Assembly: GCF_000143085.1 (NCBI RefSeq)
Contig: NC_014315.1
Coordinates: forward strand, 1,363,001 to 1,427,000
Source of the DNA: Nitrosococcus watsonii C-113
Lineage (GTDB): Bacteria; Pseudomonadota; Gammaproteobacteria; Nitrosococcales; Nitrosococcaceae
DNA: 64,000 nt
Direction of reading: 5' to 3'
The position numbers and the translations under genes are program-made. The notes under the pieces were generated by a model. The model was not told where the DNA came from. It saw only the letters and a program-made list of their open reading frames with translations, and did not search any database. How positions within the stretch are numbered: the stretch's first letter is position 1; the number at the start of each line of letters is the position of its first letter. This document shows, in pieces, positions 3,241 through 51,765 of this stretch.

Positions 3241-5799
3241 TTACTGGGACTTGCTTCGAGACAATGAATAGGCGATCACTGCATCTCCTAGCTTGGTGCC
3301 GACATAGCCGTGTCCGCCGGCTACGACAACGAGATATTGCCGGCCGTCGTGCCCCATGTAGGTGGCCGGTGTGGATTGGCCACCCGCTGGCAGCCGCGAC
3401 CTCCACAATTCCTCGCCAGACGCCAGATCGTAGCCACGTACGTAGTAGTCTACCGTGCCGGACAGGAAGGCGAGGCCGCCGCCTGTCACGATGGGGCCAC
3501 CGATGCCGGGTACACCCGCCTCGAATGGTAAAGGGATCGGCGCCACATCACGAACGGTACCATTAACGTGCTGGTATACGGTTTCGCCTGTCGTCAGATC
3601 CACGCCTGCAATATAGCCCCAGGGCGGCGACTGACAAGGCAGGCCCAACGGCGACATAAACGGTCGCAGTACGGCAGCATACGGCGTGCCGAAGTTCTCG
3701 TTACCCATTGGATAGCCGGGAGCGGAAACGATCTCGTCCAGTGTGTTGGGGCGTGGGATGAGCCGCGAGATAAAGCCGAGGTAGACAGGCATACCGAACA
3801 TGATCTGGCGGACGGGATCGACGGCAACAGCGCCCCAGTTGAAAATTCCGAAGCTGCCGGGATGAGTGAGAGTACCTTCCAAGCTCGGCGGCGTGTACCG
3901 ACCCTCGTAGCGGAGTTGGGCGAGACTGATGCGGCACATCATTTGGTCGACGGGCGATAGTCCCCACATGTCCGCGCCGGTGACATCGTCAGGGGCAAAA
4001 GAGATTGTCGAGACAGGCTGCGTTGGTGCGGGCTGTTCCCCTTCCACAGCATTTTGTGAGACGGCAATTTCTTCAGTTGGCAAAATTGCCTCTCCGGTGC
4101 GTCGATCCAGCACGAAGATCTCTCCTTGCTTAGTTGGCTGAACAAGCGCGGGTACCACCTGACCGCTGATGGTGAGATCGATCAGGCTCGGCTGGGCCGG
4201 CACGTCGTAGTCCCATATGTCGTGGTGAACAGTCTGGAATGACCATCTTACCTCACCGGTAGAGGCGTTCACGGCTACGACCGACGCCGAGAAGCGTTCT
4301 TGCTCGGGCGTTCTGTCGCCGCCATACTGGTCTGGCGAGCCGCTCCCCATTGGCAAATACACCAGGTTGAGCTCGGGATCATAGCTGGCAAGGCTCCAGT
4401 TGTTCGGCACGTTCTGGGTATAGGTCTCGCCGACCGTGATCGGCTCGGTGGACTCCGGGTTGCCGGGATCGAAGTTCCAGACAAGGCGCCCGGTACGGAT
4501 GTCAAACGCTCGCACCACCCCCGACGGAAGCGCGTTCGACAGATTGTCGTTGACGCTGCCGCCAACGACCACGACCTCGTTGGTGACAAGAGGTGGAGAC
4601 GTGCTGTAATAGGTAGTTGGCGACACATTCGGTTGTCCGATCCACAGATTCACGGTGCCATCCTCGCCGCCGAAGCCGGGACAGATTATTCCTGTTTCAG
4701 CGCTCACTGCGATCAGGCGGGCATCACGCGTCGGTAAAAAAATACGGCGCAGGCAGTCTAAGCGAATCGGCTCTGCATTGGTCGGCGCGTCGTCCACGAT
4801 GACGGGGTTTGGTGCTCCGGCTTGAGCGGTACCGGCCACCACGTTCTGCGCCGCGCCGGATGCATCGATCGTTACGCCCGCCATACTCGCTTCCACAAGG
4901 GAAAGCGCCTGCTTCTTATCAGGCGGCGGTTCCCCAGAGACCTCCCATCCCAAGCTGGTCGCGTCATGATAGGAGAGTCCGCGGCAGGTCGCGTAGGTCG
5001 ACAGTTTGTCTGTCAGACCGACGAGATTTGGACTGAATCGCCAGCGTTCTTTGCCAGTCACCGGATCGAGCGCAATGATCTCGCTCTGCGGGGTACACAA
5101 ATACATTGTATCGTTCACGATGAGCGGTGTGCTTTCCAAAGCCGTACCGGGAAGATCTACGTGGATATCGCCTGCGTGATATTCCCAGGCGACTTCCAGT
5201 TCGCTTACATTTTCAGGGGTGATCTGAGCGAGCGGCGAGTAACGCTGCCCCGCGATCGTTCCACCATAGGCCGACCAATCACCGCGCGGCACTTCCGCCG
5301 TATCCTGGTCCATGCGTGTCTGAGCAAATTCGCCCGGTAGATCCTTCGACTGGGTTGCCATAGCGAGACCGACTACTATTACTGAGAGCATGATCGCACC
5401 AACCAGACCAACCCCCTCAATCCCGTACCCGCGAAAGCCGGGACTACCATGCGGCAAACTGCGGACCACGGCAGGTAGCAACAGTAGCAGGCCGAGCAAT
5501 ATGATGATACCGACGCGCGGCGCCAAACCCCACCAATAGAGACCCACTTCCCAGACGCCCCACCCAATCGCAAATGTGATCGCTACGGCATAAATTGCCA
5601 GCCCGCTCTTACGCCGCGCCAAGAGGAGAAGCGCTGAAAGCGCGAGCAGCACACCCAGTACCAAATAGGCCCAGCTGCCACCGAGTAATCCTAGCCTGAC
5701 GCCGCCGAAAACGAGCGCGCCTCCGAACAGCAAGATTAGCGAAGCAAGAATGATGTGTATCATGGATATTACCTTACCAAATTTTGACTCTCTCCACAT
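3241..5799 (-). CDS. gcd: membrane-bound PQQ-dependent dehydrogenase (glucose/quinate type)
   Basis: 852-residue quinoprotein of the membrane-bound glucose/quinate/shikimate dehydrogenase family. These proteins oxidise a sugar or polyol in the periplasm with PQQ and pass electrons to ubiquinone. The N-terminal about 150 residues form the expected bundle of five membrane helices. A periplasmic eight-bladed propeller follows, starting near QRYSPLAQITPENV, with the family signature HHDIWDYDVPAQPSL and C-terminal W-motif blades (GYDLASGEELW). The length fits the family (about 800). The start is ATG 5799, preceded by GGAG at seven bases; a TTG at 5805 is also in frame. The substrate cannot be told from sequence. 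No pqq biosynthesis genes are in the window. The gene is convergent with the TVP38-like gene. Confidence 0.85.
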   Translation of the reverse strand: MWRESKFGKVISMIHIILASLILLFGGALVFGGVRLGLLGGSWAYLVLGVLLALSALLLLARRKSGLAIYAVAITFAIGWGVWEVGLYWWGLAPRVGIIILLGLLLLLPAVVRSLPHGSPGFRGYGIEGVGLVGAIMLSVIVVGLAMATQSKDLPGEFAQTRMDQDTAEVPRGDWSAYGGTIAGQRYSPLAQITPENVSELEVAWEYHAGDIHVDLPGTALESTPLIVNDTMYLCTPQSEIIALDPVTGKERWRFSPNLVGLTDKLSTYATCRGLSYHDATSLGWEVSGEPPPDKKQALSLVEASMAGVTIDASGAAQNVVAGTAQAGAPNPVIVDDAPTNAEPIRLDCLRRIFLPTRDARLIAVSAETGIICPGFGGEDGTVNLWIGQPNVSPTTYYSTSPPLVTNEVVVVGGSVNDNLSNALPSGVVRAFDIRTGRLVWNFDPGNPESTEPITVGETYTQNVPNNWSLASYDPELNLVYLPMGSGSPDQYGGDRTPEQERFSASVVAVNASTGEVRWSFQTVHHDIWDYDVPAQPSLIDLTISGQVVPALVQPTKQGEIFVLDRRTGEAILPTEEIAVSQNAVEGEQPAPTQPVSTISFAPDDVTGADMWGLSPVDQMMCRISLAQLRYEGRYTPPSLEGTLTHPGSFGIFNWGAVAVDPVRQIMFGMPVYLGFISRLIPRPNTLDEIVSAPGYPMGNENFGTPYAAVLRPFMSPLGLPCQSPPWGYIAGVDLTTGETVYQHVNGTVRDVAPIPLPFEAGVPGIGGPIVTGGGLAFLSGTVDYYVRGYDLASGEELWRSRLPAGGQSTPATYMGHDGRQYLVVVAGGHGYVGTKLGDAVIAYSLSRSKSQ

Positions 5800-5966
5800 C
5801 TTCAATCTCCGTCTCCATACGGGAATTATTTCGTAACTCGGTGTCCGGAGAAATCAAAGCGGTACTTAAGGAGTGATCGAGGAAAAAATGCGATCAATGA
5901 GATTCTGGGTAACAAGTGATCGGGTAGATCTGAAGGCTCTAAGTAGCGTAGTTACGAGCTATTAGC

Positions 5967-6164
5967 TCAGAGTGCTATGCAGCTGATTTGGACAGCAGCG
6001 AGGAATGAAAATGTATTTTTGGCGTACCTGGTGGCAATACCGCGCCAACGAATAAAACGCCGGTGGGTATTGCTCCAACCGCCTAACTCCGGTGGCAGAT
6101 CTCTCCAGGACGTGCCCGTGTCGATAATCTCCCAGTAAACAAACTCCTTTGGTTCGTACCGCAA
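5967..6164 (-). pseudogene. IS5-family transposase remnant (N-terminal domain only)
   Basis: The 65-residue frame contains TGTSWRDLPPELGGW followed by RRFIRWRGIA. This matches the conserved N-terminal DUF4096 segment of IS5/IS427-type transposases (G..WRDLP..FG.W..V..RF.RW). The frame then runs into unrelated sequence and stops. The catalytic DDE region and terminal inverted repeats are not visible, so this is a decayed fragment and not an active element. Confidence 0.65.
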
Positions 6165-6587: not shown

Positions 6588-6732
6588 GCAGCTTGTGGTC
6601 GATAATGTGACTTAAGTCCGTTCTTGCCAAGCGAAACTCTCTTATCTCCCGAATTAATGTCGTTATAGACGATGCGCAGCTTGGAAGCCATTGCTCTGGA
6701 TCGGCTGGCTTCACTGATTACAAGGGAGCATT

Positions 6733-9078
6733 ATGAGAAAAGTATTGATTGCGCTCACTACAGCGGCGATATTTGCGTTGCCCGTGATGGCCGAAGTTAC
6801 GTTCATGGAACTTAAAGACCTATCGCCCCTAGAGAGCAGAATTATAGCGAATGAAGGAAGTCTAGATAGTATCGATCAAGATCTATCTGATCATGAGGAT
6901 CATATTAGTACGCTGGAAACAGATAATCACTCCAGGCAAACGGTAACCATTGACGGGTTTGTCTACGCACGGGTAAAACGAACTGAAACACCCATCACTA
7001 TCAAGGGTGAGACGTGGTACTCCACCTCTACCGCTGACCGTCTGATAGATGTCACCCGGCAGGGCACCGATAGCTCACGGGGTAGTCGAATTACCGCGCC
7101 AGGTGAGCTGGTCTGGCTAAAAGGCAGTGGTGAGGAAGTTATCCTGCACCACTGCGAGGATTCTAAGATAGGTGAGCCGACGTGTTTAGTGGTGGACCCA
7201 CGGGTGAGCTATGATGGCAAGCACGTTGCTTATACCCTCATTGAGGGCACGATGCGGCAACACCAGGACTCCCCTGTCAATAAAGTCATAAGCCCTCAAC
7301 AGGCATCCCTTCATTTCGTGGATTTAACGGACCTATCACACACCGCCTGGCCTGCCGTCAAGGGTGTGTTTGATATGCAGCCCCAATGGTTGCCCGATGG
7401 CGATATTTTATTCGTTTCCAACCGGGACCATATCAAAGCCGGGGCTATTGATGGGTTCAGCCCCGATGGAGAGGTCTCGCAACTGTGGCGGGCGCACATC
7501 GACGGTAGTGGTGCCCATAATATCTCACCGGATATTCTGGGTGATGCGCTGCATCCGATTATCCACCCCACGGGCAAGGTGCTTTTTTCCAGTTGGAAAC
7601 GCGATTTGGAAACTACCCAGAACTCGACCTTAGATAACAAATGGTATATCGCCGAAACTCGTCAAGACGGCTCCGAGCATAACGCTATTTGGGGTGCTCA
7701 TGCCCGTTTTTTGCCTAACCCCGACAATATCACCCTGACCGCTCTACATTTTTTCGGTGTTCGCAGTAATGGCGATATGTGCACGACTATGTACTATCGC
7801 CAGAACACGCTTGGCTCTGGTAACGTGCAGTGCTTTAAGTATCCTACACCGAACCATCCCGAGGGCAAATTCCCCTTCAAGGCAAAGGAGGGTAGGTACC
7901 TTGGTCTGTGGGGTATGTCAGGCGATCATCAATCTATTCCCGGCGGAATCGGCAAGACGCGCGACCCGATGGGGCTGCCTGATGGCGGGCTGGTGTTTGC
8001 CGCGGATAGACAGGGTGTTTGCGGCTTCTATCATAGTTATAGACGCGTTCCTAAAGATAACATTGGATGCGATTTTGGGATTTATACGCAAAGCACTATC
8101 CCGGAACAGGACGCTGATAGTCGTGTTTTAATTGTTAACAGCCCGCACTGGCATGAGATACAGCCACAGCCTGTCATGCCCTATCAAGCTATCTACGGTA
8201 TTGAGAAACCGCCCGTGCTGAAGATGGCGGAAAGCACTCAGGATGGCAAGTGTATCCTGCGTTCCGCTAGCAACCGGATGCAGGTTGACAATGAATGGGG
8301 TTACTTCGGACCCGACAATAGTAACCCATGCCAAAAACAAGGTTGCTCAATGACCGGGGTTGACAAGCCATCCCTTATGACCAGTATTAAATTCTGGCGG
8401 CCCATTATGTTTGATAAGCGCGTGCTGCATCGGGATTTTGACGCCTTCTCAACGCACAGGCTCGAGGTGCTTGGCACCGTGCCCATGCAGCCGGACGGTA
8501 GCTTTACCGCCGAGGTGCCTTGCGATACGCCGTTCTTTATGGCGGGTGCTGATAGCGAAGGCCGATCGCTTGCTAGAGATAAAATGGCCATGTCGTTGAG
8601 ACCCGGAGAAATTCGCACCTGTTCGGGGTGTCATAATCATGACGACGATGATCCCCCTCGGTTCGAAGACTCCGATGCGGCCAATGCTACACCGACGCCA
8701 GTCTCTGCTAGCGGGACGTTACTAGAGTGGACGGCTGACATTTGGCCGATTATTCAGCAGTGCGACGCTAATTATCCTGAAATTAACCTTGCCGCTATGA
8801 CCGAAAAGCAGGCGTTTGACCGCTTTACCAAGGATAGCAGGGGTAGGGCTAAAGCGCCATGGCGAAGCAAGTGGATTAACTGGCTGTTCGCCCGCGAGAG
8901 CCTGATGTATTGGCGCGCCGCAGGCTGGCGCACAGATGGACGCGGGGATGCTACCCGCTCGGATGATATTGATTACGGAACCAGCGCACCTATCTGGCAA
9001 TGTTTAACAGATAAACAGCTTCAAATACTCGCGGACTGGATAGAAAGTGGAGCTTACCGTAAAAACGCAAAGTGGTAA
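6733..9078 (+). CDS. HzsA-related exported haem protein
   Basis: 781-residue exported protein resembling the hydrazine synthase alpha-subunit (HzsA) family. It has a Sec signal peptide (about 1-20, cut near VMA), then a short helical stretch (25-65). A beta-propeller-like region with PDG-type repeats follows (WLPDGDILFVSNRD, HPTGKVLFSSWKRD). The C-terminal part carries a single c-type haem motif CSGCH at residues 630-634, preceded by RPGEIRT as in HzsA-like proteins. A second cytochrome-like segment beginning DIWPIIQQC has CDANY (677-681) where a CxxCH would be expected, so a second haem is probably not attached there. True hydrazine synthase needs partner subunits that are absent here, so hydrazine synthesis is not implied. 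RBS AAGGGAG lies just upstream; the gene is apparently monocistronic. Confidence 0.7.
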   Translation: MRKVLIALTTAAIFALPVMAEVTFMELKDLSPLESRIIANEGSLDSIDQDLSDHEDHISTLETDNHSRQTVTIDGFVYARVKRTETPITIKGETWYSTSTADRLIDVTRQGTDSSRGSRITAPGELVWLKGSGEEVILHHCEDSKIGEPTCLVVDPRVSYDGKHVAYTLIEGTMRQHQDSPVNKVISPQQASLHFVDLTDLSHTAWPAVKGVFDMQPQWLPDGDILFVSNRDHIKAGAIDGFSPDGEVSQLWRAHIDGSGAHNISPDILGDALHPIIHPTGKVLFSSWKRDLETTQNSTLDNKWYIAETRQDGSEHNAIWGAHARFLPNPDNITLTALHFFGVRSNGDMCTTMYYRQNTLGSGNVQCFKYPTPNHPEGKFPFKAKEGRYLGLWGMSGDHQSIPGGIGKTRDPMGLPDGGLVFAADRQGVCGFYHSYRRVPKDNIGCDFGIYTQSTIPEQDADSRVLIVNSPHWHEIQPQPVMPYQAIYGIEKPPVLKMAESTQDGKCILRSASNRMQVDNEWGYFGPDNSNPCQKQGCSMTGVDKPSLMTSIKFWRPIMFDKRVLHRDFDAFSTHRLEVLGTVPMQPDGSFTAEVPCDTPFFMAGADSEGRSLARDKMAMSLRPGEIRTCSGCHNHDDDDPPRFEDSDAANATPTPVSASGTLLEWTADIWPIIQQCDANYPEINLAAMTEKQAFDRFTKDSRGRAKAPWRSKWINWLFARESLMYWRAAGWRTDGRGDATRSDDIDYGTSAPIWQCLTDKQLQILADWIESGAYRKNAKW

Positions 9079-31874: not shown

Positions 31875-33965
31875 ATGCCCAAATCATTTCATTCCAATAA
31901 TAAGCGGCGTGTTTTACCCATCGTTAATTTTTTGCTTATGGGGGGGATTCTTCCAGGCAGTGCATTGGCACAGGACACTCCAGAGGAAAGCGTAGGACTG
32001 GAGCAGATGGTGGTTACGGCGACCCGTACTGAAACCCCCATTTCCCAACTGACTCGTTCAATAACGGTGGTGACCAACCAGGAGATCCAGCAACAAGCGG
32101 GCCTAGCCCGAAATTTGGGCGATGTCCTAGCGAAAACCGTGCCGGGCCTTGGTCCTAGCTCAGAGGCACTGTCCTCTTTTAGTCAGACATTGCGGGGCCG
32201 TGATTTCCTGGTGTTGATTGATGGTATTCCCCAGTCTACCCCCTTGCGATCATCCAGCCGGGATCTCAACACCATTGACGTGGACGCGATAGAACGCATC
32301 GAAGTGATACGGGGAGGGACCGCAGCCTATGGCTTTGGCGCGGCTGGGGGGCTTATCAATATCATTACCAAGAAGCCCGCTAAAGAGGCTCTGGCGGGCT
32401 ATTCTCAAGCTAGCGTCCGCGTTTCAACCGAGCACCTGGATGATTCCGCCGCTTGGCAAACCACCCAGCGCGTTTCCGGCACCAAGGATAATATTGATTA
32501 CTTGGCTTCCGGAACCTTTATTCAGCGCAATGGCTACTTCGATGCTGATGGTGATCGCATTCCTCCCGATCCCCTCGGCAACCAGGGTGGACTAGCGGAT
32601 ACTAATGAATACAATATATTAGGTAAATTCGGCTTCAATTTCGATCAAGATCGCCAGCGTTTGCAGTTTCTTGTTAACCATTTCAATATCAAGCAAGACA
32701 CGGATTTTACCTTCGCCTTCGGCGATCCGAATCAGGGTATTAAAACACCCGCTGTGCCAGGCAGTTTCAACGCTGCTGATCCCGGTACTACCAATACCCT
32801 TGCTAGCATGCACTACATTAACCGTGACTTGCTGGGTAGCCACGTTAAGCTCAATGCTTACTATGGGGATTTGACTGCGCGTTTTTCCAAATTTCCTGGT
32901 TTTGCCCAGACTGAAATTCAGTCACAAAAATATGGCACCCGCTTGACCATTGATACGCCCCTGGCTGTGCGGGATTATGATTTTAGCCTCATTTGGGGGA
33001 TCGACTTTCTGCGGGATGAGACCGTGCAGGCGGGCATAGATGGTCCCACGGTGGTTCCGAATATGCAGGAAAATGCTCTCGCGGGCTTTCTGGAATTGGA
33101 ATTGCCGTTGAGCGACCTTGGCCTGCTGCGAGGGGGTTTTCGATATGAACATATTTCAGTGGATATTGACGATATAGTCAATCGGGGTGGCACGCTTGTG
33201 CGGGGTGATACCCTAAATTACGGCAAACCCCTTTTCAATGCCAGCGCCGTATTTTATCTGACTGATGAAATTGAGGCATTTGGGAGTTTTTCCCAGAGCT
33301 TTTCGGTGGCGGATATTGGTCGCGCTATCCGGGATGCGAACTCATCCATTACTAGCGCTGGCCAACTTGAATCCAATGCACAGAAGGTCAACAGTTACGA
33401 AATCGGCTTGCGGGGCGGCAGAGGCCCGCTACAAGCTTCCGCTGCCGGTTTCTACAGCACCTCCAATAACGGGACGACTTTTAACCGGGATCTGAGTATC
33501 GTGAAACAGCCTGAGCGCATCTGGGGCGCTGAGGGCACTCTGGCTTACCGCTTCAACTCCCAGTGGAATACCGGTGGCACTGTTACCTGGGTAGCCGGTG
33601 AAGTGGATCTCAATGATGATGACGACTATGAAGAAGATTTACCCAACACGCGCGTTCCACCGGTGAAATTGACTGGTTTCCTGGAATATAGCCCCTGGTC
33701 CTGGTGGGATAACCGAATGCAGGTGCTGTATGTGGGTGATCGAAGCCCGGATTCGACTCAATTCGGCGGCGGTGAGGTGGATGACTACACCATCGTTGAT
33801 TTGATCAGCCGCTTTAAAGTGGGGCCAGGTTATTTGGGCGTGGCGGTGAAAAACTTGCTCAATAACGATTATTTCCCCCTTGTTAGTCAAGCTGGCCGTT
33901 TACCCTATGCTTTCTCTACAGGTCCAGGCCGCACCGTCCGCATCAGCTATGCGCTGAATTGGTAG
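31875..33965 (+). CDS. iutA: TonB-dependent siderophore receptor, IutA/ferric-aerobactin type
   Basis: 696-residue outer-membrane receptor: signal peptide (about 1-32), TonB-box-like segment EQMVVTATRTETP, plug domain with LRGRDFLVLIDGIP and IERIEVIRGGTAAYGFGAAGGLINIITKKP (shown here only as a landmark), then a 22-strand barrel ending in YALNW with a terminal aromatic residue. Plug and late barrel segments (DLSIVKQPERIWGAEG) resemble ferric-aerobactin receptors IutA/RhtA, agreeing with the aerobactin-type genes downstream. It probably heads an iron-regulated set with the PepSY protein 24 bases later. Confidence 0.85.
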   Translation: MPKSFHSNNKRRVLPIVNFLLMGGILPGSALAQDTPEESVGLEQMVVTATRTETPISQLTRSITVVTNQEIQQQAGLARNLGDVLAKTVPGLGPSSEALSSFSQTLRGRDFLVLIDGIPQSTPLRSSSRDLNTIDVDAIERIEVIRGGTAAYGFGAAGGLINIITKKPAKEALAGYSQASVRVSTEHLDDSAAWQTTQRVSGTKDNIDYLASGTFIQRNGYFDADGDRIPPDPLGNQGGLADTNEYNILGKFGFNFDQDRQRLQFLVNHFNIKQDTDFTFAFGDPNQGIKTPAVPGSFNAADPGTTNTLASMHYINRDLLGSHVKLNAYYGDLTARFSKFPGFAQTEIQSQKYGTRLTIDTPLAVRDYDFSLIWGIDFLRDETVQAGIDGPTVVPNMQENALAGFLELELPLSDLGLLRGGFRYEHISVDIDDIVNRGGTLVRGDTLNYGKPLFNASAVFYLTDEIEAFGSFSQSFSVADIGRAIRDANSSITSAGQLESNAQKVNSYEIGLRGGRGPLQASAAGFYSTSNNGTTFNRDLSIVKQPERIWGAEGTLAYRFNSQWNTGGTVTWVAGEVDLNDDDDYEEDLPNTRVPPVKLTGFLEYSPWSWWDNRMQVLYVGDRSPDSTQFGGGEVDDYTIVDLISRFKVGPGYLGVAVKNLLNNDYFPLVSQAGRLPYAFSTGPGRTVRISYALNW

Positions 33966-33989
33966 AAAAACACACGTTTATTTACGGAC

Positions 33990-35102
33990 ATGTCTCGTTT
34001 GCTGCAGAAAACGCATCTCTGGATTGGGTTGATGGCTGGAGCATTATTTTGTATTTCCGGACTCTCCGGCAGCGTGCTGGTATTCGATGATGAACTCGAT
34101 GCTTATTTTAATTCGGAACTTTGGCAAGTCGAACCCCAACCTGGCCCCATTCGGCTGAATGAAGCAACCACTAAGATTCGGTCTGCGTTTCCAAGTTCTG
34201 TTTTGCTGTATGTACGTTTGCCCCGCGAGCCCAATCACAGCATCGAATACTGGGTAAAGGACGAGGCGCTGCAGCGGGTTTATATTGATCCTTGGCGTTT
34301 GGATATTCTCGGCGTTCGAGGAGAGCATGCCGGGCTGCTGGGATTTCTACATGATCTGCATGTGCATTTATTAGCAGGAGCACAAGGTCTACTCGCTAAT
34401 GGCATACTGGGCCTGATCCTGCTGTTGATGGTTGTAACCGGGCTGTGGCTTGCCTGGCCTGGCTGGCGGCGGTTATTGAAGACCTTGCGCCTACCTCGCA
34501 CGGAGGCGCGGGTAGTCCGCTGGTTTGCGCTCCATCGTTCGGTGGGTCTAATTTCATTATTGCTACTTTTTAGCAGCGCTCTAACGGGCGCGGCCATGGT
34601 TTTTCATGAACAGGCCAATGCCGCACTGATTGCTCTGTTGGGTGGTCCGGGTTTGCCGGAGCCGCCGCACATTGAATCTTCCCCTTTGCAGTCCCTATCG
34701 AAATCGCCAGCCGAGCTACTTAACATAGCGGAAGCGGCCATGGGGGATGAAAGGGCTACCTGGCTCCAGTTTCCGGTACAGCCGTCAGTCCCTTTTATTG
34801 TCAGGCTAAGGCATCCAGATAATCCGCACCCGAATGGTACCAGCTACGTGGCCTTGGATGCCGCCACTGGTGAAGTACTCATGGCCCACGATGAGGCACG
34901 CGGTGGTCCTGGCCAGCAGCTAGCAGATCTCAAGTATCCTCTGCATATTGGGACTGCTCTGGGCTTGCCGGGCCGTTTAGTCGTGTTGGTGGCAGGCATG
35001 GTGCCGACATTGCTGTTTGTTACCGGGGTCTATACCTGGTGGCGGAAGGGGCGGAGGCGTCGGGCCCGGTTAGACAAGTTACCCTCGCCATCAAGCTTTT
35101 AA
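33990..35102 (+). CDS. PepSY-domain membrane protein, probable siderophore-iron reductase
   Basis: 370-residue inner-membrane protein with four membrane helices (about 10-33, 135-158, 185-208, 325-348) and PepSY domains between them. His residues in FLHDLHVHL and ALHRSVG sit at helix ends and resemble the haem-coordinating pattern of FoxB/FsrB-type reductases that release iron from ferric siderophores in the periplasm. Placement directly after an IutA-like receptor supports this. The reductase activity is inferred from family and context. Confidence 0.82.
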   Translation: MSRLLQKTHLWIGLMAGALFCISGLSGSVLVFDDELDAYFNSELWQVEPQPGPIRLNEATTKIRSAFPSSVLLYVRLPREPNHSIEYWVKDEALQRVYIDPWRLDILGVRGEHAGLLGFLHDLHVHLLAGAQGLLANGILGLILLLMVVTGLWLAWPGWRRLLKTLRLPRTEARVVRWFALHRSVGLISLLLLFSSALTGAAMVFHEQANAALIALLGGPGLPEPPHIESSPLQSLSKSPAELLNIAEAAMGDERATWLQFPVQPSVPFIVRLRHPDNPHPNGTSYVALDAATGEVLMAHDEARGGPGQQLADLKYPLHIGTALGLPGRLVVLVAGMVPTLLFVTGVYTWWRKGRRRRARLDKLPSPSSF

Positions 35103-35129
35103 ACTGCTTGCTTCCATAGACTATTTCTA

Positions 35130-36905
35130 ATGGCCCAGCAAAAAGAACCTTCGGATCTGAGAAGGGCGTTTGAGGTTTGTAAGGGCTCTTTTTTTTCGGT
35201 GGGCTTTTTCAGCCTATTCATTAACCTGCTCATGCTGGTGCCGCCCCTTTACATGCTGCAGGTCTATGACCGCGTCATTATTACCCGCAGCGAAGAGACT
35301 TTGCTAGTACTGACTCTGGTGGTGATCTTCCTGTTTTCTATTCTGGGTGGACTGGAGTTAGTGCGTTCACGAATTCTCATTCGTATGGGTAATCGTCTCG
35401 ATACCTTAATCAGCGGGCGCCTCTATCGTGCCATGTTCCAGCGTAGCGTATTGAGCCAGGGGCGGCAGACGGCGCAACCACTTAGCGATTTGACCCAGCT
35501 CCGCCAGTTTCTGAGCGGCAATGGGCTGTTCGCCTTTTTCGATGCTCCCTGGGCGCCTATCTACCTGGGAATACTTTACCTTTTCCATCCTTGGCTGGGA
35601 TACTTTGCTACTGGCGCGGCTGTTATTTTGTTGTCCTTGGCCATCATCAACGAAAAGGCCACCAAGGCGTTGTTGGCCTCGGCCAATAGGGACCATATCA
35701 AGGCCCAGGAGCTAGCCAGCAGTAATCTGCGGAATGCAGAGGTGCTCCATGCCATGGGTATGTTGCCGGGTCTTATGGGGCGCTGGGCTGGCAAGCATCA
35801 TACCTTTTTGGCCCAGCAGTCCCAAGCCAGTGATCGGGCTGGCACACTGACTAATCTCTCCAAGATACTGCGGCTGCTGTTTCAGTCGCTGATTCTCGGC
35901 TTGGGCGCCTGGCTGGTGCTTCAAGGTAGCCTAACCCCCGGGATGATGATTGCCGGTTCGATCCTCATGGGCCGCGCCTTGGCGCCCATTGATCAGATGA
36001 TGGCCAGTTGGCGGAGCTTTGCTAACTGGCGCGGCGCTTATCAACGTCTCCATGATCTTTTTGAGCAGACGCCAAAAGAATCCCGTCCCATGTCGTTGCC
36101 AGCGCCCCAGGGGGAGATCGCATTGGAAAATGTAACAGCTGCGCCGCCTGGTGTTCCCATGGCGACTCTCCGTAGCCTTAATTTTACAGTGGCCAAGGGG
36201 GAGCATATCGGCATCATTGGACCTAGTGCCTCTGGCAAGTCGACCTTGGCCCGGGTACTGCTGGGAATCTGGCCAGCGCAGGTTGGCAAGGTGCGTCTCG
36301 ATGGGGCTGACATTGCCCAGTGGAGCCGGGATGAAGTGGGCCCTTTTATCGGCTACTTGCCCCAGGATATCGAGCTATTCGACGGCACTATCAGTGAGAA
36401 TATTGCCCGTTTCGGTGATATTGACTCGAGCAAGGTGGTGGCCGCGGCTAAAAAGGCTGGCATACATACCATGATCCTTAAATTGCCTAATGGCTATGAT
36501 ACCTATATCAGTGCTTCTGGCGGGGCGCTTTCCGGGGGGCAGCGTCAGCGCGTGGGTTTGGCGCGAGCGCTTTATGGCGATCCTGTTCTGGTCGTTCTTG
36601 ATGAACCCAACTCAAACCTTGATGATACTGGCGAGCGCGCCCTAGGGCAGGCGCTCATGCAGCTTAAGGCCGAAGGGGTTACGTTATTTGTGATCAGCCA
36701 TCGTCAAAGTATCCTTAGACAGGCGGATAAGCTGCTCATGCTCAGGGAGGGACAGCTCAGTATGTTGGGTCCTCGTGATCGGGTGCTAGCCCAGCTTGCC
36801 AAGACTAATCTGGCGAAGGGTGGAAAGCCGGCGGTCAGCCGTCTAGCAGCCATCCAGGGCAGGGGCATAAGTAGTATGGATTCGCCGCCTCGGGAACAAG
36901 ATTAA
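35130..36905 (+). CDS. type I secretion ABC transporter (PrtD/HasD-like)
   Basis: 591-residue exporter half-transporter: about six membrane helices (20-320) followed by an ATPase domain with Walker A GPSASGKST, signature LSGGQRQRVGLARAL and Walker B VLVVLDEP. It lacks the N-terminal C39-like domain of HlyB-type exporters and matches the shorter PrtD/HasD group that exports RTX proteins and hemophores. The HlyD-family adaptor gene begins at the base after its stop codon, and an RTX protein gene follows. Confidence 0.9.
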   Translation: MAQQKEPSDLRRAFEVCKGSFFSVGFFSLFINLLMLVPPLYMLQVYDRVIITRSEETLLVLTLVVIFLFSILGGLELVRSRILIRMGNRLDTLISGRLYRAMFQRSVLSQGRQTAQPLSDLTQLRQFLSGNGLFAFFDAPWAPIYLGILYLFHPWLGYFATGAAVILLSLAIINEKATKALLASANRDHIKAQELASSNLRNAEVLHAMGMLPGLMGRWAGKHHTFLAQQSQASDRAGTLTNLSKILRLLFQSLILGLGAWLVLQGSLTPGMMIAGSILMGRALAPIDQMMASWRSFANWRGAYQRLHDLFEQTPKESRPMSLPAPQGEIALENVTAAPPGVPMATLRSLNFTVAKGEHIGIIGPSASGKSTLARVLLGIWPAQVGKVRLDGADIAQWSRDEVGPFIGYLPQDIELFDGTISENIARFGDIDSSKVVAAAKKAGIHTMILKLPNGYDTYISASGGALSGGQRQRVGLARALYGDPVLVVLDEPNSNLDDTGERALGQALMQLKAEGVTLFVISHRQSILRQADKLLMLREGQLSMLGPRDRVLAQLAKTNLAKGGKPAVSRLAAIQGRGISSMDSPPREQD

Positions 36906-38273
36906 ATGAAAAATATTCCCTTACACAGGTTTGATACCGGCCCGTCCCGGCAAAAGGTCATGACCCCATCCGTATCAGACCAGCTGCTTCCTACCTCTGA
37001 TAAATATTACCGACGGCTGGGGATGGTCATTCTGCTATTCGCCTTTGGCGGTTTTGGAGGCTGGGCTCTTACCGCCGATCTTGCTGTTGCCGTCGTTGCT
37101 ACAGGAGCGGTTTCCGTGGAATCGTTTAAAAAAACCATTCAGCATCTTGAAGGGGGAATCGTCGAAGAGATATGGGTTCAGGATGGCGATCAGGTGGAAG
37201 CTGGAAATACCTTGCTGGTCCTCGATAAAACCCGGGTGCTATCCCAACTGCAAATAGCGCGCATGCAGTACTTGACCAGTGGAGTTGCCAGGGTGCGTTT
37301 GCTGGCCGAGCAGCGGGGGGCTCGTTCCATCGAGTTTTCCGAAGCCTTGCGCAATAGTCGTTTTCCCCGTGTTAAAGAAGTGTTAGCTGTTCAGAAGGCC
37401 CTATTTCAGGCCCGCCGCGAAGCACTTGCAGAAACCCTCCATGGGTTTGACGAGCAGATTTCGCAGATGAAAGAGCAGATTGACGGTCTGCAATCCATGA
37501 TTAAGGTAAGCCAATCCATGGCAGCCTCACTGAGGGTAGAAGCCAAGGACTTACGCCGTTTGTTCAAGGAGGGCTTTGTAAGTAACCAGCGGCTACGCGA
37601 GCTGGAGCGGAAAATTCTGGGGATTCAGGGGGAAATTGCCCAGTATCGCTCGGAGATCGTGCGCCTGCAGTCCCGGATCAGTGAAAACCAGACTCAGAAG
37701 CGGCTTGAGCAGCAAGAATTTCAGAAAGAGGTTGGCGAGCAACTGCGCCAGGCTCAGGCTAGCATTGCCGATGCCGAAGAGCGCATGACCGCACTTGAGG
37801 AACAAATCAAACGCACGACCATCACCGCCCCTGTTACTGGCACGGTGGTTGGGATGGCGGTACATACGCTTGGCGCCGTGATTCGCCCTGGCGAGCCGGT
37901 TTTGTCTATTGTGCCTTCGGGAGGTGATTTCGTGGTCGAAGCGCGTATTCCTGATCGAGATATTGATAATATCTATACCGGGCAGTATGCGGAGATTCGT
38001 TTCAGTGCTTTCAACCAACGGTTGACCGATGTCATTGAAGGTAAGGTCGTGCATATCAGCGCCGACGCCTTCGAGGATGAAATCACCGGCGAACGTTACT
38101 ACAAGGCGCGTATTAAGGTGACGGCGACAGGTGAGAAGAACATGAACCGCAATATACAACTGCTCGCCGGCATGCCGGCTGAGGTCATGATCAGGACGGG
38201 TGAACGAACCTTTGCCAGTTATGTGGCCAAACCTATTGCCGATATGCTAGCACGGGCCATGCGGGAGGAATAA
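36906..38273 (+). CDS. HlyD-family type I secretion adaptor (PrtE/HasE-like)
   Basis: 455-residue membrane fusion protein: one membrane helix (about 38-60), lipoyl half-motif QHLEGGIVEEIWVQDGDQV, a long coiled coil (about 105-300), second lipoyl half ITAPVTGTVVGMAVHTLGAV and a C-terminal beta domain (RTGERTFASYVAKP). It couples the ABC exporter to a TolC-like channel, which is not encoded nearby. It starts immediately after the ABC gene stop, so translational coupling is likely. Confidence 0.92.
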   Translation: MKNIPLHRFDTGPSRQKVMTPSVSDQLLPTSDKYYRRLGMVILLFAFGGFGGWALTADLAVAVVATGAVSVESFKKTIQHLEGGIVEEIWVQDGDQVEAGNTLLVLDKTRVLSQLQIARMQYLTSGVARVRLLAEQRGARSIEFSEALRNSRFPRVKEVLAVQKALFQARREALAETLHGFDEQISQMKEQIDGLQSMIKVSQSMAASLRVEAKDLRRLFKEGFVSNQRLRELERKILGIQGEIAQYRSEIVRLQSRISENQTQKRLEQQEFQKEVGEQLRQAQASIADAEERMTALEEQIKRTTITAPVTGTVVGMAVHTLGAVIRPGEPVLSIVPSGGDFVVEARIPDRDIDNIYTGQYAEIRFSAFNQRLTDVIEGKVVHISADAFEDEITGERYYKARIKVTATGEKNMNRNIQLLAGMPAEVMIRTGERTFASYVAKPIADMLARAMREE

Positions 38274-38487
38274 TAGTGTGGCGGTGGCGGTGGCGGGGCA
38301 GGCGTGTATAATTAAATAAAAATTTTTAATACAAATGCTAATTACTATTGTTAATATTATTATTGCTGCGAGAAAATAAATAATTTTAAAGCGATCTGGT
38401 GGTGGCATGTCGTTCCAATCTTCGCGGCATTACTCCCTATGGCATGTCCCCCGGAAAGCATTATTTTAAAAAACTAGGAGTTAACAA

Positions 38488-39315
38488 ATGGCTGATTTTT
38501 TGCACGAAGGTAGCGGTTTAGTTTTCGGCACCGAGGAAAATGATGTGATACGGACTTCTGGACCCTCAGTGGTATTTGCCGGTGCTGGCGACGATGGTGT
38601 TAGGATGGGTTATTCCAATGATATTGCCTATCTGGGAGAAGGCGATGATGTGGCCTATGTGGAAGCAGGCAATGATCTGGTCTTCGGCGAAGCCGGTGAT
38701 GATCTTATTTATGGGGGCAGCGGCAATGATTGGCTTGATGGGGGCGAAGGTGATGATTTTCTATGGGGTGGCGAAGGCAGCGATCAACTCTTTGGCAAGG
38801 AAGGAGACGATGCCATTTACGGCGTGACCGGGACGAATGCGCTCTATGGCTCTAATGGTAATGATCTGATTATGGGGGGCGATCAATCGGATGTCATTTT
38901 TGCTGGCGAGGATGATGATGTCGTGCTGGGCGGAGACGGTGGCGACTGGATTTCCGGTGGCTCGGGTCATAACCAAATTTATGGTCAGGGGGGGGACGAT
39001 ATTATCTATGGTAACTACTCCGGCGATCCCGAGAACTCCAACGAGATCTTCTATACTGGCAATGATGGCACTGATACGGTGAATAGATTCAACGCGGAAA
39101 CCGATCAGTTCATCATTTCCGCTAATATCAACGGTACAGACATTCAGAGCGCTGACGACTTTTCATCCCGGGTAAGTGACTATACTGATGAATCAGGTGA
39201 TGAGTCCGTAGCCGGATCTATGATTGATTTGGGAGCTGATAACGGCATTCAACTGGTTGGAATTGAAGCGAGTGAAGTTACCGCTAATCTTCCCGATTAT
39301 TTCACTGTTGCCTAA
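38488..39315 (+). CDS. RTX-repeat (haemolysin-type calcium-binding) secreted protein
   Basis: 275-residue protein made almost wholly of glycine/aspartate-rich RTX nonapeptides (GGxGxDxxx) from about 30 to 185, for example GGSGNDWLDGGEGDDFLWGG. The cap DTVNRFNAETDQFIIS follows and then an acidic C-terminal tail ending ASEVTANLPDYFTVA, typical of an uncleaved type I secretion signal. No N-terminal signal peptide and no catalytic domain are visible. RBS AGGAG precedes the ATG. It is the probable substrate of the two preceding secretion genes. Because it sits between a siderophore receptor and siderophore synthesis genes, a role in iron capture is possible, but an S-layer-like or adhesive function is equally compatible. 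Confidence 0.85.
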   Translation: MADFLHEGSGLVFGTEENDVIRTSGPSVVFAGAGDDGVRMGYSNDIAYLGEGDDVAYVEAGNDLVFGEAGDDLIYGGSGNDWLDGGEGDDFLWGGEGSDQLFGKEGDDAIYGVTGTNALYGSNGNDLIMGGDQSDVIFAGEDDDVVLGGDGGDWISGGSGHNQIYGQGGDDIIYGNYSGDPENSNEIFYTGNDGTDTVNRFNAETDQFIISANINGTDIQSADDFSSRVSDYTDESGDESVAGSMIDLGADNGIQLVGIEASEVTANLPDYFTVA

Positions 39316-39329
39316 ATCTAGTGGTATAT

Positions 39330-39356
39330 GCTTGGCGCGGATTTTTCGCGCCAAGC
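39330..39356 (+). terminator. strong hairpin after the RTX gene
   Basis: GCTTGGCGCG (39330-39339) and CGCGCCAAGC (39347-39356) form a perfect ten-base-pair stem with loop GATTTTT, 14 bases after the stop. There is no long T-tract downstream, but the structure is a good candidate terminator for the secretion operon. Confidence 0.6.
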
Positions 39357-39491
39357 CCTCTCTAGTTTAAGTTAGCTTCTATCCTCTCTCCACCCTAAGC
39401 TCCGACGCGTCCCTACGCTGTTTTACTTCGCCCGTTTGTTATAGGCAGGGAGTCGGAGTCGTAGTGTATTCAAGCACTCTTTAAGTTGAAT

Positions 39492-40670
39492 TCAGGCGCC
39501 GGTGGCCAATGCTTGTCGCAGTTTGGCTCCGGCTGGAATAGCCATAAGCGCAAGGACCGCTGCAGTGACAAGGGGCAGATGGGTAGCAATTTCAAACAGG
39601 GGACCTGCTGCCGTGACGCCAAGCAAATGCCCAAGGATGCGGGCGGTGTAGAGATCGGCGCCTGCCTGTGCTTGAGTGTGCAGGCTGCGGTTAGCGGCAG
39701 CGCCAGCAGCTGAAGCGGGCAGTATCAGCGCAAGGGAAATGGCCATTAACGCCAGGCCGGCAGGTAGGGCCGGCGGATAAGCGGCGGCAAGGGCCGTACC
39801 CAGTGCCATGCCTACGGGTGCCCATATTAGCAGAGAATAGGGATTAAGGCGGTAATGGAGGCTAACGAGTTGGGTAATCACCATGCAAGCGGCTATACCT
39901 GCAAGAAGCAGGGCTGTATACACCGGTGCGTGGCTAAGGACGATATTCCATTCAGTAGATAGGTAGGGGCCAATGATAAATTCCGCAAGCCCCAGACTCA
40001 TGTGGATGAGCACTACTGGCAGCGCAATAGCTGCTTCTGGCCATCGATTTACCGGCACGGTGAATGCCATATCCTCTTGGGAGACAACTTCATGGGGCAA
40101 CAGCAGTCGGGCGATAAGCGGCAGAATTACCAGCAGGACGAGTATTCCCTCCGGCCAATGCATAGCTAGTACCGCCGCCGTTAAGGGAATGAGTACCCGG
40201 CCAGCATTCGCGGTAGCACTCATGCGTGTCAGTGCTCCATGGCGAGCATGTTCAGGGTATTCACTCGCTAGCCAGGCATGGGTTGTGGGGAACACGCCTG
40301 AAGCAGTAAGCCCGTAGGTTAACCGGGCAGCGAATAATATCCCTGCTAACGTTATCGTCCCGATCAATCCTAGCGCACCAGCGAATAAGGCAACGACAAA
40401 AATCATCTGGCTAATTGCCGCAGCGAGTAAGAGCCGGCCCAACAATCGGCGACGTTGCCCTCGTATCACCCGCCGTGGCCAAACATAGCCACCTACCAAG
40501 AATCCGAGGGCCGCGAGCCCTAATATGGGGCTTAGCTGCCCAATGTTGAGCTCAGTAAGCGCGAGGATAATCGGCAACGCAATTACCAGCAGGCTTTGTG
40601 TAGCTCCGGTACAAGCAACAGGTAAGGCAAGGGCGATAGGCGAAACAGGCGGGGTAAGGTGTTGACTCAT
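39492..40670 (-). CDS. MFS transporter, probable siderophore exporter
   Basis: 392-residue major facilitator with about 12 membrane helices; the loop between helices 2 and 3 has the basic motif RRVIRGQRRRLLGR. It is divergent from the siderophore synthesis genes across a 157-base gap, and MFS proteins commonly export NIS siderophores, so a siderophore export role is inferred. It is GC-richer than the adjacent synthetase genes, like the rest of the chromosome. General drug export remains possible. Confidence 0.75.
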   Translation of the reverse strand: MSQHLTPPVSPIALALPVACTGATQSLLVIALPIILALTELNIGQLSPILGLAALGFLVGGYVWPRRVIRGQRRRLLGRLLLAAAISQMIFVVALFAGALGLIGTITLAGILFAARLTYGLTASGVFPTTHAWLASEYPEHARHGALTRMSATANAGRVLIPLTAAVLAMHWPEGILVLLVILPLIARLLLPHEVVSQEDMAFTVPVNRWPEAAIALPVVLIHMSLGLAEFIIGPYLSTEWNIVLSHAPVYTALLLAGIAACMVITQLVSLHYRLNPYSLLIWAPVGMALGTALAAAYPPALPAGLALMAISLALILPASAAGAAANRSLHTQAQAGADLYTARILGHLLGVTAAGPLFEIATHLPLVTAAVLALMAIPAGAKLRQALATGA

Positions 40671-40733
40671 AGGGGTGCGTTCAGATTTAGGCTAAAGAAT
40701 GTAGGAATTTATTAAAAGATAATGTAAGCTATT

Positions 40734-40748
40734 CGTATTAGCAATACG
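40734..40748. promoter_or_regulatory. palindrome in the MFS/siderophore divergent promoter
   Basis: CGTATT (40734-40739), AGC, AATACG (40743-40748) forms a perfect six-base inverted repeat. Just upstream lies AGATAATGTAAGCTATTC, which matches the Fur consensus only weakly. The site lies midway between the divergent MFS and iuc genes and could be a shared operator. Confidence 0.35.
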
Positions 40749-40827
40749 TAAATGCTGGTCTTTATGCTTTAACAGTAGTCTGGTGAGAATGAAGCGTAAG
40801 GAGACAGGTTAAATCGCTTAGGAATGG

Positions 40828-43344
40828 ATGAATAACAAAAAGTCCGAATTAAATACACTTGCGGAAAAACACTCCGTTACAGCCCTTATCAATTCTTTTT
40901 TGAGGGAGTGTGATGATTTTGAAATAAAAAATAGCAAGATTATATTTAGAAATGGTGATAAAACCTTGAATATAGCCCTTGAGAAGTATTCAAGGGTAGG
41001 AAATCATGCTTATTTAAATGACTTTTATGAGATTCTAGGAAACAAAAGAACCCCCCTGAGTTTTAAATATTTTGTGCAAGAGTTCCTCAGATGGATAAAT
41101 AAGCATGATGAAATACCAGGACTTTATCAAAGAATTCTGGAGAGCAATGATAATATTGCTCAAATACTCCATTATAGGGAACAAGACTATAGAAAACTTT
41201 TCAAGAAAAAATTCTTGTCCTTTATTGAAGCAGAGCAGGCGTTATTGCTTGGGCATAACTTTCATCCATGCCCAAAAAGTAAAGAGCAGTTTAGCCAGGA
41301 AGATCACCGCTTATATGCGCCAGAATTTAGAGGAAGTTTTCATTTGAAATGGGCGTTCTTGAATAAAGAACATCTTCTTCAAAAGAATTCAGCGTATTTT
41401 AATGATCTACATTGGTATGTAGATCTTTTTAAAGAAGATCATAAAACAGTTATCAAGGACGGATATATACCGTTCCCTTTTCATCCTTGGCAGTTTAAAT
41501 CACTAACTAACCATAAGGAGATTAAAGATTTAATAAAAGATAAGAATTTAATTCCCATTGAAAAGAAAGGATATTTAAAATGGAAGGCGACAAGTTCACT
41601 AAGAACTATTTACTGTGAAAATAGCTCTTATATGCTTAAATTTTCCCTGTCGCTGAGAATCACTAATTCCGTTAGACATTTGCAAGAAGCCGAGATCGTT
41701 AGAGGGCTTCAAGTTCATGATGTAATGAATTCCAGTAATGGGAAGGATTTTCTTAATATAAATAAAAATTTTCATATCTTATGCGAACCCTCCTTTCTTG
41801 CTATCAAAGGGAAATTCAATAACCTTCTTATAGAAACAATTGTACTCATACGAGACAATCCTTTTAGAGGAAAAATGTTGTATGAGGCCATTGTTTTATC
41901 GACGATAACGCAGGTTGATCCTTATCTAGAAAAAGGGTTTTTTTCATCACGTAAAATTGATGCTATAAAATGGTTTAATCTTTATCTTAAATATGTACTT
42001 GATCCTTTTATAATGGCTCAAGCTAACCATGGCATTCTTTTTGGCGCGCACCAACAAAATATTATTATCCAGCTAGACGCTAATAGCTATCCTGTGGGAG
42101 TTATCTTTAGAGACTGCCAGGGAACAGGGTATACCAAGCTTGGTTATGAAAGGATGAAACAGGAAGTTCCTTTGCTAGATCTGGAAAATGGAAATATCCT
42201 AGATAAAGATATGTCCCATATACTTCTTGGGTATTATCTCATTATCAACTCGACATTCAGTTTAATAAATGCGCTCGCGATACAAAGAGCATGTAATGAA
42301 GAAGATCTTCTTCATATTCTTGCTGAGTATTTACAAGGCAAAAAAAATAGTAATCTTATCGATCAATCATTTCTTAATTATCTTCTTAATTCAAATTTAA
42401 TAGGGCAAAAAGGAAATTTTTTTTGTTGCCTAAAGAATATTAACGAGAATACCGAGAAGAATCCTTTAGATATTTATAACTTTATTAAAAATCCCTTGTA
42501 TTCCAAATTTAGGAGAACCGTGATAGATAAAAAAAAATTAAAAATTAACGATATCCTGCTAGATAAAGGAGAGGAAGAATTTTTAAAAAACAAATTTAGA
42601 CCTAATATTAAAGAGGTAGAGATAGAACTGGTAGATAAAAAAGTAATCATCAGTAGGAATGAGTTTTTCCAAATTTCTCCTTATTGGTTGATGAATTCTG
42701 AAAGAGAACTTTATCCCGTGGTCTGGGCAGAAACTAATGGAGTTTCTCATCCAATAAGACATAACCCAGAAAGGGGAACGTTACTCTACAAAAGATTTGT
42801 ATACGAAATAGATAAAACTATTTCTTTTCGGGTTATCGATCCAAAAAAGGATATTAATACATTTGCTAGATGGCATAATCAGTCTCGTATTTCGGAATTT
42901 TGGGAATTAAAAGATACAAGGGAAAACCATCTTCAGTATATAGAAAAAAATTTAAATGACCCCCATATCATTCCCACTATATTAGATATTGATGATGAAC
43001 CTATCGGTTATTTTGAGCTTTATTGGGTTAAAGAAGATCGTCTAGGGGCCTATTATGAAAGCGTTGATTTTGACAGGGGATTTCACTTCCTGGTTGGAGA
43101 GAAAAAATTTCTGGGATTAAAAAATACGGGCGCTATGCTAAAAAGTGTTATCCATTACCTTTTTCTTGATGAACCCAGAACTTTAAAGATCATGGCTGAG
43201 CCGCGATCTGATAATAAAAAGGTATTGAAATACGTTGATTTTCTTCCTTTTTGGAAGAGAATTAAAGAATTTGATTTTCCCCATAAAAGGGCTGTCCTCC
43301 TGGAGTGTACTCGGGAGAGGTTCTTTACAGGCAGCTATTTATGA
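40828..43344 (+). CDS. IucA/IucC-type NIS synthetase fused to IucB-like acetyltransferase
   Basis: 838-residue two-domain protein. Residues about 1-580 are a NIS siderophore synthetase with HPWQ (219-222) and the ATP-site segments FGAHQQN and FRDCQGTGY. Residues about 600-838 are a GNAT-like acyltransferase of the IucB/RhbD/AlcB group (WHNQSRISEFWE; GYFELYWVKEDRLG; PRSDNKKVL). In aerobactin synthesis, IucB acetylates N6-hydroxylysine and IucA joins the product to citrate; here both activities would be in one chain. The gene is very AT-rich, unlike upstream neighbours. Its stop overlaps the next start (ATGA). AGGA precedes ATG 40828 closely. Confidence 0.88.
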   Translation: MNNKKSELNTLAEKHSVTALINSFLRECDDFEIKNSKIIFRNGDKTLNIALEKYSRVGNHAYLNDFYEILGNKRTPLSFKYFVQEFLRWINKHDEIPGLYQRILESNDNIAQILHYREQDYRKLFKKKFLSFIEAEQALLLGHNFHPCPKSKEQFSQEDHRLYAPEFRGSFHLKWAFLNKEHLLQKNSAYFNDLHWYVDLFKEDHKTVIKDGYIPFPFHPWQFKSLTNHKEIKDLIKDKNLIPIEKKGYLKWKATSSLRTIYCENSSYMLKFSLSLRITNSVRHLQEAEIVRGLQVHDVMNSSNGKDFLNINKNFHILCEPSFLAIKGKFNNLLIETIVLIRDNPFRGKMLYEAIVLSTITQVDPYLEKGFFSSRKIDAIKWFNLYLKYVLDPFIMAQANHGILFGAHQQNIIIQLDANSYPVGVIFRDCQGTGYTKLGYERMKQEVPLLDLENGNILDKDMSHILLGYYLIINSTFSLINALAIQRACNEEDLLHILAEYLQGKKNSNLIDQSFLNYLLNSNLIGQKGNFFCCLKNINENTEKNPLDIYNFIKNPLYSKFRRTVIDKKKLKINDILLDKGEEEFLKNKFRPNIKEVEIELVDKKVIISRNEFFQISPYWLMNSERELYPVVWAETNGVSHPIRHNPERGTLLYKRFVYEIDKTISFRVIDPKKDINTFARWHNQSRISEFWELKDTRENHLQYIEKNLNDPHIIPTILDIDDEPIGYFELYWVKEDRLGAYYESVDFDRGFHFLVGEKKFLGLKNTGAMLKSVIHYLFLDEPRTLKIMAEPRSDNKKVLKYVDFLPFWKRIKEFDFPHKRAVLLECTRERFFTGSYL

Positions 43345-45077: not shown

Positions 45078-46353
45078 TGTATTTGATTTAGTCGGTATTG
45101 GGATTGGCCCGTTTAATTTAAGCCTGGCGGCTATCTCAGAAAAGAATAAAGAATTAAAGACTCATTTTTTTGAACAAAAACCGTTATTTCTATGGCACTC
45201 TGAAATCATCTTTCCAGACTCTGATATGCAAACGGCTTTTTTAAAGGATCTAGTCACAGGGGTTGATCCCACGAGTCCCTATTCTTTTTTAAACTATCTT
45301 GTAATGAATGGATTTTTTCATTCATTTATGAATACCAAAAGGCACGTCATTACTAGAAAAGAATTTGAACTTTATTGTCAGTGGGTTACCCGGCAAATGC
45401 CTAGGAAATTATCTTTTAATTCAAAAATAAGAAATCTCTACTATGATGGTGAAAACTTTATTATTGAAAGCCATAAAGAAAAAATTAAAAGTAAAAATAT
45501 CTGCATCGGAACAGGAATTAGCCCTAAAATTCCTTCGTTTACCGCGCCCTATATGAGTGATACCTTCTTCCATGCGAAATCAGAATCAATAAAAAATTTG
45601 AATATTAGTGGCAAGCGAATTGTTATTATCGGCGGCGGACAAACCGGTGTTGAAGTTTTTAGAAATGCTCTTAAAAAAAAGTGGGGCAATGCAAAATCTC
45701 TAACGCTTATTTCTAGCCGGGCAAACCTGGAACCTTTAGATGAATCGCCTTTTACTAATGAGTATTTTAGCCCCCATTACGTAGAAAATTTTTTTTCCAT
45801 AAATTCTCAACTCAAAAGAAATATTGTAGATTACCAAAAATTATCTAGCGATGGTAATACCCCCGCCTACTTGCAAAGTCTCTATAATGATCTTTATTTT
45901 ATTCAAAATGTAGAGCAATCACCGGTTGATTTTAAAATACTTCCTTATCGAAGGCTTCAGAGTGTAGAGAACAATGGAAAAGGTTATAAATTAACTATTT
46001 CCAATAATTTTTCTCAGAAAGAAGAATCCATAGGAGCTGATATTGTTATTTTGTGTACCGGGTTTGAGAACAGAATTCCAGGTTTTATTGAGCCTATAAA
46101 ACATCTTATTGAATTTAATGAAAATAAATGTTTTAAGGTCAACAAAGATTTTTCAATACGATGGAAAGGGTATGACAAAAATAAAATTTTTGCCCAAAAT
46201 TTTAGTAGGTATGGACACGGAATTTTTGAACCCCAAACCAGTTTGATGTCCTGGAGATCGGCGGTAATTACTAATGCTGTTTCTAAAAAGGAAGTTTATC
46301 GGATAAAAAATATTGCGCCTAATTTTTTAAGTTATGAAAGTGTTACCAAATAG
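45070..46353 (+). CDS. iucD: lysine/ornithine N-monooxygenase, IucD-like
   Basis: 427-residue flavoprotein hydroxylase with FAD motif GIGIGPFNLSLAA (10-22), NADPH motif IVIIGGGQTGVEVFRN and C-terminal ILCTGF. Length and motifs fit IucD/RhbE/AlcA-type N6-lysine (or diamine) hydroxylases, the first step in hydroxamate siderophore synthesis. No diamine-forming decarboxylase is present, which favours lysine and an aerobactin-like product. It overlaps the previous gene by eight bases. It is AT-rich like the other two, and a hairpin follows 56 bases after its stop. Confidence 0.88.
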   Translation: MCNVFDLVGIGIGPFNLSLAAISEKNKELKTHFFEQKPLFLWHSEIIFPDSDMQTAFLKDLVTGVDPTSPYSFLNYLVMNGFFHSFMNTKRHVITRKEFELYCQWVTRQMPRKLSFNSKIRNLYYDGENFIIESHKEKIKSKNICIGTGISPKIPSFTAPYMSDTFFHAKSESIKNLNISGKRIVIIGGGQTGVEVFRNALKKKWGNAKSLTLISSRANLEPLDESPFTNEYFSPHYVENFFSINSQLKRNIVDYQKLSSDGNTPAYLQSLYNDLYFIQNVEQSPVDFKILPYRRLQSVENNGKGYKLTISNNFSQKEESIGADIVILCTGFENRIPGFIEPIKHLIEFNENKCFKVNKDFSIRWKGYDKNKIFAQNFSRYGHGIFEPQTSLMSWRSAVITNAVSKKEVYRIKNIAPNFLSYESVTK

Positions 46354-51756: not shown

Positions 51757-51765
51757 GAAGGATGT

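Follow-up and report, generated by a model that had tools for sequence, protein, structure and literature searches.

Does an aerobic ammonia oxidizer that carries a lone relative of the alpha subunit of hydrazine synthase (HzsA) use it on a nitrogen intermediate? HzsA was long regarded as unique to anammox. The window analyzed here, a 64,000-nucleotide stretch of the Nitrosococcus watsonii C-113 genome, contains an intact reading frame for a 781-residue protein (P0001), which the original prediction described as a stand-alone, HzsA-like haem protein that might handle NO, hydroxylamine, or another nitrogen intermediate if its host oxidizes ammonia. The host part of this prediction is sound: a profile search finds one copy of ammonia monooxygenase (AMO) in the genome, and a 39-kb contig of the same assembly matches plasmids of Nitrosococcus oceani (96%) and N. 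halophilus (85%).

Family membership and fold

The Pfam HZS_alpha model (PF18582) matches the protein at 46.1 bits (E 7e-12), above its curated cut-off of 26.6 bits. The sole PDB sequence match is 5c2v_A, HzsA of Kuenenia (E 9e-4), and a profile search sharpens this match to E 3e-9. An AlphaFold model built from 44 homologs (mean pLDDT 75, pTM 0.79) was used for Foldseek; an earlier one, based on six sequences, scored poorly (pLDDT 48) and was left out. The top-ranking structures are chains A and D of 5c2v, matched over the full length (E 7.9e-21, TM 0.56/0.57), followed by TolB-type propellers (6e-9). The alignment with 5c2v covers 868 columns at 14% identity with an rmsd of 7.4 Å, which suggests that domain placement differs or is uncertain in the model. 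Homology to HzsA and an HzsA-related fold are confirmed, and membership in an unrelated propeller family, the outcome that would have spoken against the prediction, is ruled out by the Pfam match, the PDB sequence match, and the fold.

Like HzsA, the protein combines a propeller, a middle haem domain, and a C-terminal cytochrome-like domain, and both contain the CSGCH motif of haem alpha-I (Table 1). Unlike HzsA, it lacks haem alpha-II, which is bis-His in the anammox protein, as well as a beta/gamma partner. The gene does stand alone as predicted: beta/gamma partner genes were not found among its neighbors, and the only CCP_MauG match in a profile search of the genome lies ~140 kb away.

Table 1. 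Positions in the window of the HzsA-like gene, its signals, and the parts of its product
Feature	Position	Strand	Basis
P0001, HzsA-like protein with one haem site, predicted to be secreted, 781 aa	6733..9078	+	ORF, Pfam, PDB sequence match, Foldseek
Probable ribosome-binding site AAGGGAG, 4 nt before ATG	6722..6728	+	read in sequence
Predicted Sec-type signal peptide, aa 1-20, MRKVLIALTTAAIFALPVMA	6733..6792	+	read in sequence
Predicted helix/coiled coil, about aa 34-68, unaligned with the two-haem paralogs	6832..6936	+	alignment, model
Beta-rich propeller part, about aa 75-555	6955..8397	+	model, Foldseek (TolB-type propellers after HzsA)
HZS_alpha middle domain match, aa 575-635	8455..8637	+	Pfam
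Haem alpha-I site CSGCHNH, aa 630-636	8620..8640	+	alignment
C-terminal cytochrome-like domain, haem site lost, about aa 660-781	8710..9075	+	alignment, model
Lost second CxxCH, now CDANY, aa 677-681; Cys677 kept	8761..8775	+	alignment
Ala752 at the position of a conserved His, aligned with HzsA His772	8986..8988	+	alignment; PMC12758564 for His772
Cys757, unique to the three one-haem orthologs; may pair with Cys677 in a disulfide	9001..9003	+	alignment
Terminator-like hairpin with T tail, 28 nt past the stop codon	9106..9119	+	sequence search
IS5-type transposase remnant, upstream of the gene	5967..6164	-	motif; family named by eye

Haem sites

The CSGCH motif had been read as C-terminal; residues 630–634 of 781 instead place it in the middle (haem alpha-I) domain. 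Cys630, Cys633, and His634 are invariant in the 44 aligned homologs, and His636 is invariant in the 20 close ones. The C-terminal cytochrome domain contains no CxxCH at all. The second CxxCH is likewise absent from the copies in two congener genomes (G002, which we take to be N. oceani, and G001, presumably N. halophilus) and is kept in 40 of the 41 other rows, the sole exception being one gapped row. At the position of HzsA His772, the three one-haem proteins have Ala, Ala, or Pro, and nearly all others have His. The first cysteine of the lost motif, Cys677, is retained in the one-haem proteins. This combination looks like a coordinated loss: the second haem would have been lost as a unit on the one-haem branch, with the CxxCH and distal His gone and a cysteine gained that may close the empty pocket through a Cys677–Cys757 disulfide.

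In HzsA the iron ligand of haem alpha-I is Tyr591, four residues past the CxxCH histidine (PMC12607021). Its equivalent is Asp638 in the window protein, Asp or Asn in the orthologs, and Thr in the paralogs, and the tyrosine is also missing from the other non-anammox homologs checked. Of the HzsA zinc site (Cys303 and the CxxCH histidine), His634 is present; the propeller is not alignable residue by residue to HzsA, and Cys303 is not conserved across all anammox bacteria (PMC12758564). In genuine hydrazine synthase, haem alpha-I remains ferric and no role has been assigned to haem alpha-II (PMC12607021); chemistry at alpha-I could therefore persist without the second haem.

HZS-alpha homologs outside anammox that lack Tyr591, some of them also without haem alpha-II, were described in 2025 among >600 structural hits (PMC12758564), and a 2023 study suggests a wider HZS-like family with other substrates (PMC10732223). 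The novelty of the present protein is therefore modest. It resembles clades I–IV of the 2025 study in its non-anammox origin, in the missing Tyr591, and in the absence of haem alpha-II seen in some members. However, clades II and III have lost their last ~100 residues, whereas the window protein keeps the domain and only its haem site is gone; moreover, the clade genes adjoin beta/gamma-like genes and this one is alone. Among the matches listed, we found no literature treatment of the Nitrosococcus one-haem protein. What is new here is a one-haem variant that keeps the C-terminal domain, a two-haem sister in the same genome, and an exopolysaccharide context. A one-haem relative and a two-haem sister in one cell form a simple pair for probing the separate roles of the HzsA haem sites.

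Two-haem paralogs and genomic history

The two orthologs of the protein are 68% and 52% identical to it. A second, two-haem Nitrosococcus protein (L003:7531-10287, L036:6633-9323, L037:6219-8786) is ~40% identical to it over its length and shares the CxGCHxH site, but retains the second CxxCH and the distal His. In an IQ-TREE phylogeny the three one-haem proteins are sister to these paralogs (bootstrap 100/100), with a warning that long branches meet near the join of the two groups. Four extra cysteines (507, 533, 538, and 597), shared only by the three one-haem proteins and the three paralogs, agree with the tree. In all three species the two-haem paralog is found in an exosortase-A exopolysaccharide (EPS) cluster encoding XrtA, a TIGR03108 amidotransferase, and glycosyltransferases; for the window's own genome these assignments come from family models, and for the other two species from reading by eye. 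The window protein and this EPS-linked protein would share an ancestor.

In contrast to its paralog, the window gene is not inside an XrtA EPS cluster. Its neighbors are a PQQ glucose dehydrogenase gene on the opposite strand and MgtE-like and CysQ-like genes (the latter two named by eye), among others; given these neighbors, it is probably transcribed as a single gene. The search that found the downstream hairpin gave 6 terminator-like sites, where chance predicts 3.3. The gene has no adjoining HAO, NOR, or cytochrome partner, and no Rfam families were found in the window.

The one-haem copies occupy three unrelated genomic places, and DNA similarity between them is confined to the coding sequence. 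At the N. oceani equivalent of the window site, a glucose dehydrogenase fragment is joined directly to MgtE. The one-haem gene has moved between genomic sites. The motif of the IS5-type remnant upstream is also present in transposase ORFs adjoining the Nitrosomonas-like relatives, and both the remnants and these ORFs fit mobility.

Between N. watsonii and N. oceani, the one-haem copies show saturated synonymous divergence (pS 0.77) and far less non-synonymous divergence (pN 0.21), and the gene is therefore under purifying selection and not a chance ORF. A degraded pseudogene is ruled out by this selection and by the intact frame. The two-haem paralogs are unsaturated (pS 0.47) and 85% identical between species, versus 68% for the one-haem copies. 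Based on this difference, the one-haem copies split earlier than the species, as either ancient duplicates or products of lateral transfer.

Two observations concern the flanks of these genes. The window encodes a full-length PQQ glucose dehydrogenase (3241-5805), of which N. oceani retains only a fragment (window 3691-3948) beside its MgtE gene. In N. halophilus (L035:8129-10290), the 5' end of the one-haem ortholog and its upstream region occur in perfect tandem repeats of 817 bp, which leave two truncated ORFs of 175 residues.

Function and wider distribution

Relatives in EPS clusters include the Nitrosococcus paralog and proteins of Thalassotalea (with TIGR03098, 03099, and 03100), a Methylococcaceae MAG, and genome G200, the context in the last two being judged by eye. 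In one close, Nitrosomonas-like relative, the C terminus bears Ig-like or OmpL47-type surface domains. The EPS-cluster relatives and the surface domains moderately support an envelope role. Against a surface role, the window copy lies outside any EPS cluster, and no such cluster surrounds the Nitrosomonas and Nitrospirales relatives. Weighing these observations, we give about an even chance to the protein being a secreted, one-haem envelope haem centre that descends from an EPS-linked family and does not form N–N bonds. It would be exported, to the periplasm or the surface, its middle domain would bind a single c-type haem covalently, and it would most likely serve as an enzyme or ligand-binding haem centre at the envelope, working on or next to surface polymers. 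The remaining haem may be catalytic.

A non-enzymatic alternative is a surface binding protein built on the propeller, such as an adhesin, a lectin-like protein, or a ligand receptor, in which the haem is structural or sensory. The TolB-type binding propellers matched by its propeller part, the surface domains of the close relative, and the dispensable second haem are all consistent with this idea, and apart from the conserved haem motif, the sequence would look the same if the protein had a structural or binding role without catalysis. The invariance of that motif in all 44 homologs, and of His636 as well in the close clade, nevertheless points to a functional haem site, and we regard a pure binding protein as rather unlikely.

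The distribution of the family bears on the proposed nitrogen role. HZS_alpha proteins are present in 57 of 369 sampled Gammaproteobacteria. When these 57 genomes and three further Nitrosococcus genomes were tested for AMO, 55 of the 60 lacked it; AMO is present only in four Nitrosococcus and one Nitrosomonas-like genome, and the fourth Nitrosococcus has AMO but no HZS_alpha relative. Within the Nitrosomonas family, a relative occurs in 8 of 125 genomes. Close relatives in named records come from Nitrosomonas marina, Thalassotalea, a Methylococcaceae MAG, and two Nitrospirales MAGs. The distribution of the relatives is patchy and untied to ammonia oxidation, and a general nitrification gene is unsupported. 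For nitrifiers and metagenomes alike, matching HZS_alpha is no evidence for anammox.

A nitrogen function, raised as a possibility in the original prediction, is unsupported and unlikely. In its broader form, the haem would handle NO, hydroxylamine, or hydrazine, for example in detoxification or scavenging during ammonia oxidation. The host has AMO, the fold is that of HzsA, where hydroxylamine and ammonium are proposed to condense at haem alpha-I (PMC12607021), and some Nitrosomonas and Nitrospirales MAGs encode close relatives. Nonetheless, the family is patchy among nitrifiers and common in genomes without AMO, the catalytic tyrosine is absent, the nearest paralog sits in an exopolysaccharide cluster, no HAO, NOR, or cytochrome gene is adjacent as a partner, and close relatives exist in Thalassotalea, which is not known to nitrify, all of which render this alternative improbable. 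We consider it a long shot that the protein is a stand-alone, one-haem HzsA-type enzyme processing a nitrogen intermediate in an aerobic ammonia oxidizer; if true, such an enzyme would show that haem alpha-I can do its chemistry in the absence of the other parts of hydrazine synthase. Finally, domain order and fold match HzsA, as would be expected if the protein were a hydrazine synthase acting alone or a decayed relic of the anammox enzyme. However, the NCBIfam hydrazine_alpha equivalog (NF052339) scores only 27.7 bits against a cut-off of 800, the ligand tyrosine is missing as in the non-anammox homologs here and in PMC12758564, no beta/gamma partner is nearby, and the intact frame is under purifying selection. 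On the score, the missing tyrosine, and the absent partner, we reject hydrazine synthase proper, and the probability of either form of this origin is close to nil.

We also identified HzsA-like proteins in other settings. In 16 of 20 sampled 20-kb contexts from Gammaproteobacteria (among L076-L089, L091, L094, and L095), the HZS_alpha gene belongs to a single conserved operon that also encodes an SH3/outer-membrane barrel protein, a second barrel, DUF3570, and usually a TlpA-like thioredoxin. Nine of these contexts add PSCyt2-like, two-CxxCH LamG, and Tat-signal genes, and ApbE is present in at least one. Because DUF3570 is flavinylated by ApbE (PMC8238504), this operon looks like an uncharacterised extracellular redox system that uses an HzsA-like protein. 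These proteins share with the window protein the Pfam domain, secretion, and a propeller plus haem, but are only ~20% identical to it, and their conserved redox/outer-membrane operon is missing at the window gene. The Nitrosomonas-like genome G383 encodes four HzsA-like proteins (L090:7473-12605; L160, L161, L162), at least one of them fused to Ig-like surface domains and some located near phage or IS5-type genes.

Elsewhere in the window, two two-CxxCH proteins flank an old-yellow-enzyme-like oxidoreductase (58675-60846, 60859-62184, 62419-63939); the second is a RoxA-like di-haem cytochrome above the Pfam cut-off, and the first matches weakly. A likely siderophore region (31875-46353) encodes a TonB receptor, a PepSY-like protein, an exporter, biosynthesis enzymes, and a lysine/ornithine N-hydroxylase; a secretion set (35130-38273) and an RTX-repeat protein (38488-39315) break it up. 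The genes at 47471-54924, named by eye, are probably a type I restriction-modification set in which a virulence-RhuM-like gene separates S from R.
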